From a bacterium (GTDB taxonomy: Bacteria > Babelota > Babeliae > Babelales > Babelaceae), in NCBI GenBank assembly GCA_021827715.1, contig JAKAUO010000034.1, forward strand, positions 1 through 63,405: a stretch of DNA of 63,405 nucleotides. Reading direction: 5' to 3'. The notes beneath the pieces were generated by a model, which worked only from the letters and a program-made list of their open reading frames with translations, searched no databases and was not told the DNA's origin. The translations under genes were made by a program, and so were the position numbers. Within the stretch, counting starts at the first letter, position 1. Each line of letters starts with the position of its first letter. This document shows positions 16,304 through 24,456 of this stretch, piece by piece.

Positions 16304-18025
16304 TTATTCGCTTTGAGTTTCTTGCTTATCCATGAGTTTTCGATATTGTTTTAGATAGTTTAATGCTACAGCAGTAACCACGGCAGATGATCCGACGTGT
16401 TCCATAAGGATCACCATGGTAAATGGAGGGTAATCTTTATACGTAACATGGGCCACGAACCAGCCCTGTTCAAGAAATTCTTTAGAAAGTTCCCGCTTTT
16501 CAAAAGAGCTTACCTGCCCGGTACCCGTTTTTGCAAAGATCTCAAAGTTTTTAAGATGACGAAGTTGAGAGCCTGTTCCGTGAGCTTGAATACTTTGTTT
16601 CATGGACCGTTTTAAAAACTCACGTGTCTCGGTTGATAACTCAACCTCCTGTTTTACAACGGGTTCATCGGTAAGTATCCGTGGTGTCACCAGATAACCT
16701 TGGCATATTGCATTAATCATGCGGGTAATCTGTAAAGGCGTTACCAATAAAAATGATTGTCCAATGGCCGCAGAAAGTGTCTCGCCTGGCCACCAAGATT
16801 CCCCTTTCACTTCCCGTTTCCATTTCCGTGTAGGGATGAGCCCCGGCTTTTCCGGCAATATACTATTAGTTGGTTGTCCTAATCCTAATTTAGCGGCAAA
16901 TTCAGCCAATGTATCAATTTTAATTTTTTTTCCCACTTCAAAAAAAGGTATATTACATGATTGTGCAATGGCAGAAAGCGTCGTCATAATGCCATGTCCT
17001 TTACGTTGCCAGCAGTGATAGTCTCTGCCGACAAAGGTGGTATGTCCATGGCATACCCAAATATCAGATTGCTGGATAATACCCGTTTCAAGGCCTGCAG
17101 CCATTGAGACCAGCTTAAAGATAGATGCTGGTGGGTAACAGGCGTTTGATGCACGATTTAAAAAAGGTTGATCTGTTTGGATATCGTTCCATGTTTTCAT
17201 AGAAAGGTGATCAAGAAATACATTAGGATCAAAAGATGGCCGTGAAAGCAGTACTAACAGGTCGCCACTTTGAGAGTCCATAATAATCATTGCGCCCCGG
17301 GCGTCTTCAGGGAATACAGAATCTGCAATTAAGCTTAAATCAAGATCAAGCGTGGTACTAATAGTGCCCCCTAAAAGCGAATCTTTCTGCTTTTGCGTGG
17401 CAAGGTATTTTCCGCGTGAGTTCACTGTCTTTGCAATTTGCCCAGGCTGGCCCTTGAGGACCCCTTCGCATATCTTTTCAAGCCCCATTTTTCCTGAATG
17501 TTCATAATGAATACCTCCTAAATAACCAACAATATGGCTGGCAATTTCTTTGTGGGGGTAGTAGCGCTTAAAATCGGTAGTATATACCAGGTTAGGGTGT
17601 TGACCATATTGTTCAATAAGAATACTGAGTTTTTCAAAAGGGACATCAGTATGCAAAAGAATTGTTTTATTTAATTTTTCTGCATTCAGGAGTTCAGTGG
17701 TATTAATGGTTGCTTCAGGAACATGAAGTGCTATGGTTTGCAAGAGCGCACGCTGCTGTTGTGTTAATTCTTTGCCCCCCGTTCCTTGCCAATAGAGTGA
17801 AATAACCGGACGATTGGTAGCAAGTAATTTATTATTGCGATCAACAATATTGCCGCGAGGAGAAAGTATTTTTTCAAAGCGTAAAAAATTTCTTTGACTC
17901 AGTTTAAAAAAAGTAAGTGTTTGAAAAACTTGTAAATAGGCCAACCGAGCTATAATAAAAGAGAGACCCACAAAGAAACTTATAAAAAAAATTAAGATCT
18001 TTTTTGTTGAAAGACGATGTTGCAT
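16304..18025 (-). CDS. mrdA: Penicillin-binding protein 2, elongation transpeptidase
   Basis: The 573-residue class B PBP has an N-terminal membrane anchor (residues 9-28), a dimerisation domain containing the RGNIVDRNNKLLA box, and a transpeptidase domain. The active-site S301-x-x-K304 (PPASIFKL) is present, with SCN at 356-358 and KTG at 499-501. It cross-links peptidoglycan during side-wall growth and should pair with the RodA polymerase at 42325-43416. It lies 21 bases after the Xer gene, so it is the last gene of an operon with that gene and the NtrC-like regulator. The length fits PBP2 and is shorter than typical FtsI. Confidence 0.88.
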   Translation of the reverse strand: MQHRLSTKKILIFFISFFVGLSFIIARLAYLQVFQTLTFFKLSQRNFLRFEKILSPRGNIVDRNNKLLATNRPVISLYWQGTGGKELTQQQRALLQTIALHVPEATINTTELLNAEKLNKTILLHTDVPFEKLSILIEQYGQHPNLVYTTDFKRYYPHKEIASHIVGYLGGIHYEHSGKMGLEKICEGVLKGQPGQIAKTVNSRGKYLATQKQKDSLLGGTISTTLDLDLSLIADSVFPEDARGAMIIMDSQSGDLLVLLSRPSFDPNVFLDHLSMKTWNDIQTDQPFLNRASNACYPPASIFKLVSMAAGLETGIIQQSDIWVCHGHTTFVGRDYHCWQRKGHGIMTTLSAIAQSCNIPFFEVGKKIKIDTLAEFAAKLGLGQPTNSILPEKPGLIPTRKWKREVKGESWWPGETLSAAIGQSFLLVTPLQITRMINAICQGYLVTPRILTDEPVVKQEVELSTETREFLKRSMKQSIQAHGTGSQLRHLKNFEIFAKTGTGQVSSFEKRELSKEFLEQGWFVAHVTYKDYPPFTMVILMEHVGSSAVVTAVALNYLKQYRKLMDKQETQSE

Positions 18026-18046: not shown

Positions 18047-18976
18047 TTAAAGTATTTTATTTTTTTTTGCAATCATGAGCTTCCGCTCACCAAGCTCTCG
18101 GGGCTGTAGGTGGGCTTCTGGAGAAATATGTGTATATCGTTCGGTGCTTGCCAACGTTGCATGGCCCAAAAGCTCTTGTACGCTTTTAAGATCAGCACCT
18201 TGTTGTATAAGATGCGTAGCAAAAGAATGGCGCAACACATGGGGAGTAACCGGTTTTTTTTTTTCGAGAAAGGTACTAAAAAGTGAGCATATGCGCTGAA
18301 TTGACCGGGTAGTAAGCGGTTCATTTTTGTAATTTAAAAAGAGAAACTCTGTACTTAATTGTGGCTTAACCCGTTCATGTGTGATGTATAAATCAAGCTT
18401 TTTTTTACATTCAGAGCCAAAAAGTACCAAGCGTGATTTTTTACCTTTTCCGCCAATAGTAATAGTCTGTTCAATTGGGTCGATATCTTTTAACTGAATA
18501 TTAACAAGCTCGGAGCAGCGAATGCCCGTTGCATACAACATTTCTAAAATCGCTTTATCTCGGTGGGGAAACTGGGTGTTTTCTTGCGTTAAATTTATTT
18601 TATCAAGGAGAAAAAATATTTCATCCAAGCTGAGTATGCTCGGTAATTTCTGTTCAATACGTGGACGCACTAATGCCAAAGTTATCGGAATATTTTTGAC
18701 GCGGTTGAGATACCGTTCAAACGATTTAAAGCAAGAAATTTTGCGAGCAATAGACGCCTTAGATATTTTTTTGTGATACAGTGCCAAGAAATAACGGTCA
18801 AGAGCTGTTTTAAAAGAGAATGGATGGGGTTCTCGGAGGTTAATGTCGTGCCAAAAAAGGTTTACTTGATCAAGATCACTTTCATACGCACGTAAAGTAT
18901 GTGTTGAAATATTTCTTTCAACGCGGATAGTGTCTAAAAATGGTTTAATTTCGTTAATAAATTCTGTATGTTTCAT
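18047..18976 (-). CDS. XerC/XerD-type tyrosine recombinase
   Basis: The 309-residue protein has the SAM-like N-terminal core-binding domain (residues 5-95) and a complete catalytic domain: R153 in ATGIRCSEL, Lys in GGKGKKSR (near 178), H246-x-x-R249 in HVLRHSFATHL, H272 in LLGHA and the nucleophile Y281 in STERYTHIS. XerC/D enzymes resolve chromosome dimers at dif. Only one is present here, so C or D cannot be assigned. The start overlaps the stop of the upstream regulator in an ATGA, indicating translational coupling, and mrdA follows. Confidence 0.9.
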   Translation of the reverse strand: MKHTEFINEIKPFLDTIRVERNISTHTLRAYESDLDQVNLFWHDINLREPHPFSFKTALDRYFLALYHKKISKASIARKISCFKSFERYLNRVKNIPITLALVRPRIEQKLPSILSLDEIFFLLDKINLTQENTQFPHRDKAILEMLYATGIRCSELVNIQLKDIDPIEQTITIGGKGKKSRLVLFGSECKKKLDLYITHERVKPQLSTEFLFLNYKNEPLTTRSIQRICSLFSTFLEKKKPVTPHVLRHSFATHLIQQGADLKSVQELLGHATLASTERYTHISPEAHLQPRELGERKLMIAKKNKIL

Positions 18977-21369
18977 TGAGCCTGCTCATCAATGAGATTA
19001 AATTCCTTGCACCGGCGATTAACCGATGATCTATTCACATTGAGCAGTTTAGCAATTTTTGTTTGATTTTTAAATTTATTCCATAAATAGGTCATAATTT
19101 GTTGATCTTTGAGCGCATTCTTACCCAAGCGTGCAACATTATACATATCGGGCGTTGTTATGGAATAAGCACCATCGATAACATCTTCCTGTTTTACCTG
19201 TTTCTTTTTTGCTTTATTAATAAGCATATAATAAACACGGTCCTTATATTCTTGTAAACTTATTGGTCTATCGTTGAGAATTTTTTCTCGCTCTTTGGGT
19301 GATAAATCGACACCATGAGCAGAATTTTTTTCAGAAATAATATGTTGAATAAATCCGGCAGTCAGATCACTTAATTCAGTAGGCGCCAACGTTAAAAGCG
19401 AAGGAAGTGTTGCCGATGTTTTTATCAATTCATTATAGAGTTTAGGCAAAAAAGTACCATGCTGGCACAAATGGCTTAAATTTTGGTTTGAAGAACATAT
19501 AATGCGGGCTGAACTTGAGCGTTTTCTATCGCTTTTAAGCTGAGTAAAGACCCCGGTGTGTAAAAAATGCGCCAGCAATTCTTGGGTTTGAATGCTTAAA
19601 AGGTGAATGTTTTTAATAAATATGGTACCGTTTAGATCATTTCTTTCTAAAAGTCCAGCAGAATCGTTCGCACTAAAAAGGGGGTTGATCCCAAATAATT
19701 TTAAAGCGATTTCATGATTTTTTTCAGTTGCTTGCAGTTCTATGGTTTCAAGATGATCACGCAAACTAATATGATGAAGCAGTTCTACGGTAGGCAAAAT
19801 ATCTTCCTCGGGCAAGTTCAGCAAGACTGCCTTTTTGCTTAAAGCAGCCTTAAGTAGATTAATTTTAAAGTCTAAAATCTGCATGCCGGTACCGGGAATA
19901 AGCTTATTAATAAGTTTGCCCGAATGCGTGGTTTCAAGAAAAAGCATATAATCCCAATTTGAAGGATCTTTAAGGGTATGGGTATTAAGTTGCTGAGCTT
20001 CAGGAGCAAGCTTATTTTTTTGTAAAAATTCTCTGATGGTCTCTTTGCAGTGGCGCAACTCCTGATGCTTATGGTACAGCTCTTCCTTAAGCTCTTTTTC
20101 TTGTTGGATAAGTGACTCAAGATTACGATTTTTAAGTAAGTGTATTAATGCGCCTAAGTAACTGGTAAATACGAGCATTTCATCATATTCCACCTTACTG
20201 AAAAGCATATGGGGACGTGCATTTCTTTCTATTATTATAAAGGCATTTATAGACTTTTTTTCATAAATGGGGATAAAAACATCCGCTTGGACCAGCTCTA
20301 GAAATTTGAGCGCCTGTTTTTGTTCTTCTTTTTCTTCATAAAAGTAAGAAAATTCTAACTCATCTTTTACCAGCAGTGCATTATTGAGCATAAAAGGCTC
20401 GTTGAGATAGGGTTCTACTAGATTGTTGATCCTGGTGTCTTCTGCTGTATCTAATGATTTGATGTACAATTTTGTTTTTTCGCTCGGAATAGAAAAAGCG
20501 ACCTTATAGAAATTGCTGATGATATTTTGAAGTTCATTAAGAGAGGTTACGTGTCCTAACTGCGTAAGTACATCCTTGAAGTCTTTCACAAAGCTGAAGT
20601 GCACATCACCTTCTACATGTTCTGTCATGTTTAAAAAGCGCATCCCGATAATCTTTTTATAGCAAAAATATATAGCATACGTTAACAATAACGATGATCC
20701 TGTTGCTAAGTAAAATGCGCTATGCTTAAAGGCGTGGTGAAAGAGGTTAAATGGATCATTCGTGATTATTTCCAAGAAAATATGGGGTAAGACAATATAC
20801 AAGAGAAAAGTCTTTATTTGCTTAATAAGTATAGAGGGTGCCTGTGCATTTTTAATACTTATTAATGATAGGTAAAGAGTAGGTGCAAATAATACTATGA
20901 TATGCAAATTAGTTATTTTTTTAATGAATTTTTCAAGGGGTAAGATATGGTCGTCTTGAGCAAAAAAAGCCAAAAATAAGAAATATGCTATTCCTATTAA
21001 GCCTATTATGCCAAATATTATGTTATGCAGCCTGATGGTGGGCTTCTTTTTTTCAAGTGATTCTACAAACATAGCAAGCGCGTAGCATTGTACTATATAC
21101 GTTGCGCAAACTATACGAATTAAAAAGATTATCGTCGAGCGTGAAATATCGGGGAAAAGAGTCCCGCGTAAAAGGTTCGTGAACCAGGTAGCATCACTGA
21201 AGGCACTTACAAAAAGAATAATTGAAAGAAAAAGCCATAATATTTTATTTTTGGATTTAAAGGTTAAATTCAATATACTTACAAGAAAAAAAGATTTAAC
21301 GGCAATACAAAAGAGTTGCAGCCCCAGTAAAATATGTAAAGGATCGAAACTGTTATAAGAAATATCCAT
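18973..21369 (-). CDS. Membrane-bound NtrC-like regulator with degenerate AAA+ domain
   Basis: The 798-residue protein has about seven hydrophobic segments in residues 8-235, a GAF-like region (about 255-405), a coiled coil (410-445), and a domain aligning with sigma-54 activator AAA+ domains (about 460-700). LFG is kept at 548-550, but Walker A is replaced by NLPEEDIL (508-515), no GAFTGA motif exists, and Walker B reads GTIFIKNI (571-578) where GTLFLDEI is expected. The sensor-like ARIICSSNQNL (611-621) and FLPKLYNEL (630-638) confirm the alignment. A Fis-type helix-turn-helix lies at 746-785. It probably binds DNA but cannot hydrolyse ATP. It is coupled to the Xer recombinase gene. Confidence 0.7.
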   Translation of the reverse strand: MDISYNSFDPLHILLGLQLFCIAVKSFFLVSILNLTFKSKNKILWLFLSIILFVSAFSDATWFTNLLRGTLFPDISRSTIIFLIRIVCATYIVQCYALAMFVESLEKKKPTIRLHNIIFGIIGLIGIAYFLFLAFFAQDDHILPLEKFIKKITNLHIIVLFAPTLYLSLISIKNAQAPSILIKQIKTFLLYIVLPHIFLEIITNDPFNLFHHAFKHSAFYLATGSSLLLTYAIYFCYKKIIGMRFLNMTEHVEGDVHFSFVKDFKDVLTQLGHVTSLNELQNIISNFYKVAFSIPSEKTKLYIKSLDTAEDTRINNLVEPYLNEPFMLNNALLVKDELEFSYFYEEKEEQKQALKFLELVQADVFIPIYEKKSINAFIIIERNARPHMLFSKVEYDEMLVFTSYLGALIHLLKNRNLESLIQQEKELKEELYHKHQELRHCKETIREFLQKNKLAPEAQQLNTHTLKDPSNWDYMLFLETTHSGKLINKLIPGTGMQILDFKINLLKAALSKKAVLLNLPEEDILPTVELLHHISLRDHLETIELQATEKNHEIALKLFGINPLFSANDSAGLLERNDLNGTIFIKNIHLLSIQTQELLAHFLHTGVFTQLKSDRKRSSSARIICSSNQNLSHLCQHGTFLPKLYNELIKTSATLPSLLTLAPTELSDLTAGFIQHIISEKNSAHGVDLSPKEREKILNDRPISLQEYKDRVYYMLINKAKKKQVKQEDVIDGAYSITTPDMYNVARLGKNALKDQQIMTYLWNKFKNQTKIAKLLNVNRSSVNRRCKEFNLIDEQAQ

Positions 21370-21481: not shown

Positions 21482-21673
21482 ATGAAAATGTCATTATTAA
21501 TGTTGTCTTTGTTGACTGTTAGTCTAACTATGAAAGCTGCGCCTGAGGTAGGTCCGGATGAACCACTTGATCCGCCATCAACAACTACCACTGAGACAAC
21601 CAGTTCAACAGCATCTTCTGGTAGCGATTCTGGATCATCATCATCATCATCGAATGATACTGGCGCTTACTAA
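21482..21673 (+). CDS. Small exported Ser/Thr-rich peptide
   Basis: The 63-residue product has a convincing signal peptide (MSLLMLSLLTVSLTMKAAP) and a mature part made only of low-complexity Pro/Thr/Ser/Asp sequence (DPPSTTTTETTSSTASSG, then a run of serines). The ATG at 21482 follows AGGTAAATT. No family is recognised. It may be a secreted peptide, a linker remnant of a larger surface protein, or a glycosylation-type stalk. It ends 17 bases before nth. Confidence 0.4.
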   Translation: MKMSLLMLSLLTVSLTMKAAPEVGPDEPLDPPSTTTTETTSSTASSGSDSGSSSSSSNDTGAY

Positions 21674-21690: not shown

Positions 21691-22362
21691 TTGGTCGACA
21701 AGAATCTCACAGAATATGGCCAGAGGGTTTTGAAGATTTTAGAGTCGGCTCTGGTAGGTAAAGTACCCGAGCCGATGTCTTTAACCCTCATTAAAGAATT
21801 TGGTAAGGACCCGTTTCTTATTTTAATAGGCTGTCTTTTAAGCCTGCGTTCAAAAGACAGTGTCACGTATGGTGTCTGCAAAGAGCTTTTTTCTCGGGCG
21901 CGTACCCCTGAACAATTACTTACTATCCCCCAGCATAAGCTGGAGGCTCTCATTCATAAAATTGGTTTTTTTAGACGTAAGGCAGCCATCCTTAAGGAGG
22001 TCAGCCAAGAAATTATTGATCAGTTTGGTGGCCATGTGCCTGACACGCAAGCCGATTTACTTAGTATTAAAGGGGTAGGCCGCAAGACAGCAAATTTGGT
22101 ATTAGCGCTTGCCTTTGACAAACACGCTATCTGTGTTGATGTACATGTTCATAGACTCTCCAATATGCTTGGCCTTGTTGCTACCAAAACACCCGAACAA
22201 ACAGAGTTTGCTTTACAAAAAATCTATCCTTCTCGGCAATGGGCGTCCATAAACCGTCTTCTTGTTATGCTTGGACAAAATAGGTGCACGCCGAGCACCC
22301 AGAACAGTTTAACCTGTAAGCCTTTGCGCGGCCTAACTATTCCAATTGGCATTAAGCAGTAA
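21691..22362 (+). CDS. nth: Endonuclease III, with incomplete iron-sulphur ligands
   Basis: The 223-residue DNA glycosylase/AP lyase removes oxidised pyrimidines in base-excision repair. The helix-hairpin-helix LLSIKGVGRKTANLVLAL contains the catalytic K132, and D150 lies in ICVDVHVHR. Where E. coli Nth has four cluster cysteines spaced C-x6-C-x2-C-x5-C, this protein keeps C199 and C209 but has S206 and L215, so it probably lacks the 4Fe-4S cluster. The start is a TTG preceded by AGGGA. Its last 11 bases overlap the convergent exported gene. Confidence 0.85.
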   Translation: MVDKNLTEYGQRVLKILESALVGKVPEPMSLTLIKEFGKDPFLILIGCLLSLRSKDSVTYGVCKELFSRARTPEQLLTIPQHKLEALIHKIGFFRRKAAILKEVSQEIIDQFGGHVPDTQADLLSIKGVGRKTANLVLALAFDKHAICVDVHVHRLSNMLGLVATKTPEQTEFALQKIYPSRQWASINRLLVMLGQNRCTPSTQNSLTCKPLRGLTIPIGIKQ

Positions 22363-23944: not shown

Positions 23945-24277
23945 TTAAAGGCCCGGAATAACCGATTTGACAGCTTTAACTACTTTCATAGGTACCGTTG
24001 CTTTACGTTTAGCAGCTTTTTTAGCAGCTGCTTTACGTTTAGGAGCGGCTTTTTTAGCGGCTACTTTACGTTTAGGAGCAGCCTTTTTAGCAGCTACTTT
24101 TCTTTTAGGAGCAGCTTTTTTAGCAGCTACTTTACGTTTAGGAGCAGCTTTTTTAGCGGCTACTTTGCGTTTAGGAGCAGCTTTTTTAGCAGCTACTTTT
24201 CTTTTAGGAGCAGCTTTTTTAGCGGCTACTTTACGTTTAGGAGCAGCTTTTTTAGCAGCTACTTTTCTCTTTGCCAT
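23945..24277 (-). CDS. Histone H1-like lysine/alanine-rich repeat protein
   Basis: The 110-residue protein consists of about eight copies of KRKVAAKKAAP (11 residues, 33 bases), then KRKATVPMKVVKAVKSVIPGL. This matches the composition of bacterial histone H1-like proteins such as the Hc1/Hc2 type of Chlamydia, which bind and compact DNA. The ATG at 24277 follows AAGGAGAGACGT; a longer frame to 24424 includes a terminator-like inverted repeat and is rejected. Copy number may vary between strains because the repeats are near-identical at DNA level. A role in nucleoid packing is inferred from composition. Confidence 0.8.
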   Translation of the reverse strand: MAKRKVAAKKAAPKRKVAAKKAAPKRKVAAKKAAPKRKVAAKKAAPKRKVAAKKAAPKRKVAAKKAAPKRKVAAKKAAPKRKAAAKKAAKRKATVPMKVVKAVKSVIPGL

Positions 24278-24405
24278 ACGTCTCTCCTTGTATGAAAAGG
24301 TTATACATGATTGTACATTCTTATCGTAACCGATCTTGTTTTTAATTAGCAATATATTGGTCAAATAAAAAATAAAATCATTATAGAGAAAAATATTCTG
24401 ATACA

Positions 24406-24456
24406 AATAGACATGCAAAAACAATGCGGCCGAGCGCGCTTTTTTGCATGTCTATT
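24406..24456. terminator. Long inverted repeat between thrS and the H1-like gene
   Basis: AATAGACATGCAAAAA (24406-24421) and TTTTTGCATGTCTATT (24441-24456) form a perfect 16-base-pair stem with a GC-rich 19-base loop. It lies about 20 bases after the end of thrS and could end transcription in either direction; the better T-run is on the plus strand. It separates thrS from the H1-like gene. Confidence 0.6.

Follow-up and report, generated by a model that had tools for sequence, protein, structure and literature searches.

A predicted membrane-tethered, NtrC-derived regulator that has lost its ATPase motifs, and its divergent small peptide gene, in the Babelota

AgrC and ComD are polytopic membrane sensors for a self-encoded peptide, and both are histidine kinases that work with a separate response regulator. 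TyrR, DhaR, HupR and VpsR, in turn, are soluble proteins that have kept most of their nucleotide-binding motifs. The first three are EBP paralogues without GAFTGA that work with sigma70, and VpsR carries the same kind of deletion (PMC3162934). In the Rgg/SHP systems, genes for short hydrophobic pro-peptides lie beside the regulator gene, the SHP genes being divergent from it (PMC13361665, PMC10075063). Regulation in the Dependentiae is almost unexplored; for the published Chromulinavorax genome, the regulators listed are of the merR, yebC and fmdB types only (PMC6561590).

Here we describe a regulator gene from a 63,405-nucleotide stretch of Babelota (Dependentiae) DNA, referred to below as the window, which belongs to a genome of 1.0 Mb that is 94% complete. 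The reading we favor, and consider probable, is that this gene encodes a sigma54-independent, membrane-tethered one-component regulator which arose from an NtrC-type EBP and is paired with its own exported peptide, either as a ligand or as a membrane partner. The parts of the regulator described in a first-pass annotation of the window were confirmed, but the divergent peptide gene directly upstream had been missed. This peptide gene is new here, and the loss of motifs is broader than first described, being family-wide and not limited to one gene. The features of the locus are collected in Table 1.

Table 1. Features of the regulator locus in window coordinates, with residue numbers of the regulator where they apply
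Feature	Position	Strand	Basis
Penicillin-binding protein 2 (mrdA)	16304..18025	-	TIGR03423 best match, 4.4e-128
XerC/D-type tyrosine recombinase	18047..18976	-	Pfam, NCBIfam
Membrane-tethered pseudo-EBP regulator, 798 aa	18973..21369	-	Open ORF; Pfam Sigma54_activat; order-wide family
Seven-TM domain, residues 1-243, predicted N-out/C-in	20641..21369	-	Family hydropathy; least conserved (mean 0.40)
Linker and GAF-like region, residues 244-414	20128..20640	-	Weak GAF_2 match
Probable coiled-coil linker, residues 415-462	19984..20127	-	Alignment
Pseudo-AAA+ domain and lid, residues 464-740	19150..19980	-	Profile match, NtrC-family AAA+ structures
Former Walker A, residues 518-525, NLPEEDIL	19795..19818	-	Alignment with 3dzd GESGTGKE, family alignment
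Former GAFTGA loop, residues 559-569, FGINPLFSAND	19663..19695	-	Alignments, motif survey
Former Walker B, residues 581-588, GTIFIKNI	19606..19629	-	Alignments, motif survey
Fis-type helix-turn-helix, residues 745-792, VNRSSVNRRCKEF	18994..19137	-	Position, conservation, weak HTH_8/HTH_50 matches
Divergent small exported peptide gene (predicted), 63 aa, MKMSLLMLSLLTVSLTMKAAPEVGPDEPLDPPSTTTT...	21482..21673	+	Translation; survey and controls
Endonuclease III-like gene (nth), downstream of peptide, same strand	21691..22362	+	PF00730, 1.7e-22

An AAA+ domain without its motifs in a membrane protein

The first-pass annotation had traced a degenerate AAA+ fold of the sigma54-activator type in the regulator, and this assignment held. 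Pfam and NCBIfam both assign residues 530-660 to the sigma54 activators, the Pfam Sigma54_activat match (residues 530-648, 2.8e-11) passing its cut-off. Furthermore, a profile built from 21 relatives matched the AAA+ domain of 3dzd, a solved NtrC-family structure, at 1.1e-19 over ~220 positions that take in the lid (5.2e-23 for the full-length regulator profile), and the AAA+ ancestry of the regulator is therefore not a matter of chance. When the two are aligned, Walker A (GESGTGKE in 3dzd) is replaced by NLPEEDIL, GAFTGA by NPLFSAND, the LFLDE of Walker B by IFIKN and FREDLYYRL, which holds the arginine finger, by FLPKLYNEL. The loss of Walker A, GAFTGA and Walker B, originally read from the window, is general: in an alignment of 24 full-length members, every AAA domain lacked the P-loop, GAFTGA, the Walker B DE pair and the arginine finger. 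A single P-loop-like string, found in the L061 copy, falls in the PAS-like region described below and not in the AAA domain. The old P-loop position is now marked by an Asp that does not vary within the family (D523 in the window). Judged from these alignments, the motif-less AAA+ domain is a conserved state of the family and not the product of one decaying gene. With sigma54 activators the regulator shares the NtrC-homologous AAA+ domain and the C-terminal Fis-type helix-turn-helix (HTH), and it lacks Walker A and B, the GAFTGA loop and an RpoN in the same genome; with TyrR/VpsR-like EBPs it shares the missing GAFTGA and the retained HTH.

The HTH, also recognized in the first pass, is the best conserved part of the regulator (mean 0.75), followed by the segment just before the AAA domain (0.73), and its NRSSVNRR motif is invariant in the family alignment. 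It was also the sole part modeled by AlphaFold at a pLDDT of 70-81, with three close sequences as input; the models of the full regulator and of its C-terminal 344 residues had values of 41.5 and 47.5, respectively. The seven-helix membrane part likewise found support in the family hydropathy profile, which has exactly seven TM segments with a positive-inside pattern. From the N-terminus onward, Lys plus Arg per loop averages 0.2, 3.4, 2.8, 3.8, 1.8, 4.8, 0.5 and 4.8 in the family alignment, and this alternation between loops indicates that the C-terminal part is cytoplasmic. Between membrane and AAA domain, the GAF-like region is weakly assigned (GAF_2 in three of 24 members, best E 0.009), and the same applies to a PAS-like domain of ~100 residues (PAS_8/MEKHLA matches at E about 0.06 only) that is inserted after the coiled-coil linker in most relatives and has been lost in the genus of the window.

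Distribution and gene neighborhood

Of 101 Babelota genomes, 67 encode the regulator, and these belong to 12 of the 19 families; the copies number 99, and no genome has more than four. Their frames are open and about 900 codons long, with 45-55% identity across families, and duplications occur. RpoN was absent from all 101 genomes, including that of the window, in a search with PF04552 and PF04963 whose controls were positive, in keeping with the earlier proposal that the protein no longer activates sigma54. The other two PF00158 matches in the genome of the window are ClpB and YifB, which leaves the regulator as its sole EBP-like protein. In the viral contigs searched, no relative was found. 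A full-length, intact EBP with GAFTGA (L045 in G008:C6; 741 or 725 aa) was set aside as probable contamination: its contig is 5.9 kb long, and the MAG to which that contig belongs has 4% contamination and lacks RpoN.

Three families (f10, f11 and f17) have neither the membrane regulator nor RpoN, and encode instead a soluble NtrX-like response regulator (loci L036-L044) with a receiver, an AAA domain that keeps its P-loop and a Fis-type HTH, but with the GAFTGA region deleted. At most of these loci the gene adjoins GspC/PilQ-like secretion genes. No genome had both the NtrX-like protein and the membrane regulator, an exclusion that is not an independent statistic because one or two old replacements could explain it.

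The order of regulator, Xer recombinase and PBP2 genes noted in the first pass is conserved: in 54 of the 60 genomes having both, xer comes after the regulator, at most 6 kb away and in the same orientation, and xer precedes mrdA in 57 of 58. In the window, the regulator stop overlaps the xer start by 4 nt (ATGA), an overlap confined to this genus. In other genera the two genes are separated by anything from 0 to several kb, in some cases with other genes in between, and the proposed translational coupling is not a general feature. The xer-mrdA order also occurs in 11 genomes without the regulator and is an old gene pair, and several regulator copies (L052, L053, L061 and L068) stand alone, away from it. 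Because the pair is kept without the regulator, the suggested link between chromosome resolution and wall growth reduces to old gene order and is not supported. Further along the window (23945-24424, minus strand) lies a gene for a histone H1-like Lys/Ala/Pro repeat protein with KRKVAAKKAAP repeats.

In the upstream regions of the regulator, AGTATA is present in 40 of 63 (8.3 expected) and AGTATAAT, a sigma70-type -10 element, in 18 of 63 (0.9 expected). No shared operator palindrome was found there, and only AGTATAAT and ATCAA/GCAA words in the start region stand out. In most genomes one of these words, ATCAA or GCAA, is conserved ~6-12 nt before the start codon, in place of a Shine-Dalgarno (SD) sequence.

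The divergent peptide gene

In the operator search, an excess of the words ACTCCT and TGGAGG upstream of the regulator turned out to be the SD sequence and the Pro-Pro codons of a divergent ORF. This small, unannotated gene begins about 90 nt upstream of most regulator copies. Its product follows a simple plan: the N-terminus is basic, a hydrophobic segment comes next, and in the tail Pro-Pro (PP) usually stands 1-3 residues from the C-terminus, as in 45 of 50 short PP peptides. Lys and Arg before the hydrophobic core number 91 versus 19 after it, and so the predicted topology is N-in/C-out, with the tail outside. In the window, 112 nt separate the start of this gene, likewise previously unannotated, from that of the regulator. 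The peptide encoded there has a signal-peptide-like leader, PP at residues 31-32 and a Ser/Thr-rich tail, with 31 residues beyond PP; it matches no known family.

Using fixed criteria (a start 60-170 nt upstream, a length of 20-110 aa, an SD and a hydrophobic leader), we found a passing ORF at 64 of 94 regulator copies, whereas Markov shuffles gave 2.4, the regions upstream of 173 other genes gave 8 and the wrong strand at the 94 copies gave 2. The additional demand for PP in the last nine residues left 47 of 94, versus none in the shuffles, 0/173 and 0/94. These counts should not be read as probabilities, since the first examples were already known when the criteria were set and the copies are related by descent. 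With the start rules relaxed, 68 PP peptides were recovered in 54 of the 65 genomes examined, representing all 12 regulator-bearing families. A scan of 634 kb returned 56 such ORFs at the regulator and seven elsewhere, two of the seven being tandem copies at a regulator. In all nine close peptide pairs compared, dS exceeded dN (e.g., 1.65 versus 0.21).

Several paralogous regulators within one genome can each have a distinct peptide of their own, as in G051 (three) and G081 (three). Tandem peptide genes, two or three at one regulator and diverging from one another, were also seen (three in G007, at L121 in G007:C22; also L059). Longer peptides repeat the PP unit in the manner of pheromone precursors, with three copies of DDFPPMG in L050, five PTPPxRY units in L066 and a further case in L122. 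About a quarter of the regulator copies are without a detected peptide, and these are mostly second copies of tandem pairs, which may share the peptide of the first copy. No clear PP peptide was seen at L109, L111, L112, L118, L119, L126-L130 and L132, where the AGTATA promoter element is mostly kept. The peptide gene is followed by nth in the same orientation in 45 of 68 cases and by no nth in the other 23, so that its association with the regulator is closer than that of nth. The evidence for the pairing of peptide and regulator is strong; that the regulator senses the peptide is what we infer from it.

Alternative readings, mechanism and known systems

The main alternative, which we regard as possible but doubtful, is that the peptide is retained in the membrane and modulates the sensor, in the manner of MgrB and PhoQ and of small connector proteins, rather than being released as an intercellular signal. 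The 50 PP peptides of 45 residues or fewer would suit this role, as they have little more than the basic N-terminus and the hydrophobic segment, followed by only a few tail residues, but the signal-peptide-like leaders and the repeated or Ser/Thr/Pro-rich tails of the longer members (L050, L066, L087, L122 and the window) suit an exported product. The peptides might also be translation-arrest peptides of the C-terminal RAPP-like class that control the downstream gene; nth does follow on the same strand in two-thirds of cases, and the arrest peptides already described are short proteins, secretory or membrane-bound, whose C-terminal part carries Pro-Pro and whose genes lie upstream of the gene they regulate (PMC10951233, PMC12992588). 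Nevertheless, we judge this reading quite unlikely because no peptide has the RAPP/RGPP core (PMC12992588): a search for R[AG]P[PG] found RAPP, RGPP and RAPG in none of 72 peptides. Moreover, the residues preceding PP are variable, the PP of the window peptide lies half-way along the chain, and the cases without nth leave the divergent regulator as the sole constant neighbor of the peptide.

Two other readings concern the regulator itself. The conserved order of regulator, xer and mrdA would fit a membrane-bound repressor or nucleoid-type DNA tether that acts on the xer-mrdA operon and couples wall growth to chromosome resolution. This is unlikely, given that the gene pair persists without the regulator, that a shared operator was not found and that regulator copies stand alone or as tandem duplicates, both classes often having a peptide of their own. 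Finally, with RpoN and every ATPase motif gone, the regulator could be a decaying, functionless NtrC-type relic left after the loss of rpoN. Open frames of ~900 residues, identity of 45-55% across families, a near-invariant HTH in 67 genomes and the duplications make this scarcely credible, and it was rejected on the conservation of the regulator across the phylum.

Under the preferred reading, a sigma54-independent regulator paired with its own peptide, the peptide would be anchored or released at the outer face of the inner membrane and would act on the seven-TM domain as its ligand or as a partner in regulation; this domain would sense either the peptide or a condition that the peptide reports. 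The signal would then travel by way of the GAF, coiled-coil and PAS-like segments to the motorless AAA module, which may act in oligomerization or relay, setting the oligomeric state. The HTH, in turn, would act at promoters of the sigma70 type, among them probably the divergent promoter region of the regulator itself, where the AGTATAAT element is the obvious candidate target region. Regulator and peptide together would form a self-contained peptide-sensing switch. Tentatively, and with less confidence than in the pairing, we suggest a signaling system specific to the Babelota, in which exported, pheromone-like PP-tailed peptides would be sensed by the divergently encoded, seven-TM, motorless NtrC-derived receptor-regulator as a measure of cell number or confinement in the protist host. 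If the peptides are signals, these obligate intracellular bacteria of protists would have peptide communication of an undescribed type. With this locus the phylum gains a conserved sensor-regulator and an example of what can become of an NtrC-type activator once sigma54 is lost, together with defined peptide-receptor pairs open to laboratory testing.

The combination of one such membrane protein, an RpoN-less phylum and PP-tailed peptides was not found in the open-access papers searched. Like TyrR, DhaR, HupR and VpsR, the regulator has an NtrC-type AAA+ domain and a Fis-type HTH, has lost the sigma54 contact loop and is sigma54-independent; unlike them, it is also without the P-loop, Walker B and the arginine finger, has seven TM helices and belongs to a phylum that lacks RpoN. 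The resemblance to ApdA and ApdP, the RAPP-type arrest peptides (PMC10951233, PMC12992588), lies in small size, a secretory or membrane nature and a C-terminal Pro-Pro, whereas the Babelota peptides lack Arg-Ala/Gly ahead of PP, have no downstream target gene in common and include variants in which PP is repeated or internal. With Rgg/SHP and other RRNPP pairs the locus shares an adjacent gene for a short hydrophobic pro-peptide, its secretion here being predicted from sequence, and peptides that differ between paralogues. The receptors of RRNPP systems are cytosolic, contain TPR repeats and come from Firmicutes; the candidate receptor here, in which Pfam scans matched no TPR repeats, has instead seven TM segments and occurs in intracellular bacteria of the Gram-negative type, with a PP-tailed peptide. 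As in AgrC and ComD, a polytopic membrane sensor would be joined to a self-encoded peptide, but in the Babelota regulator, unlike in these, sensor and HTH are carried on one chain.
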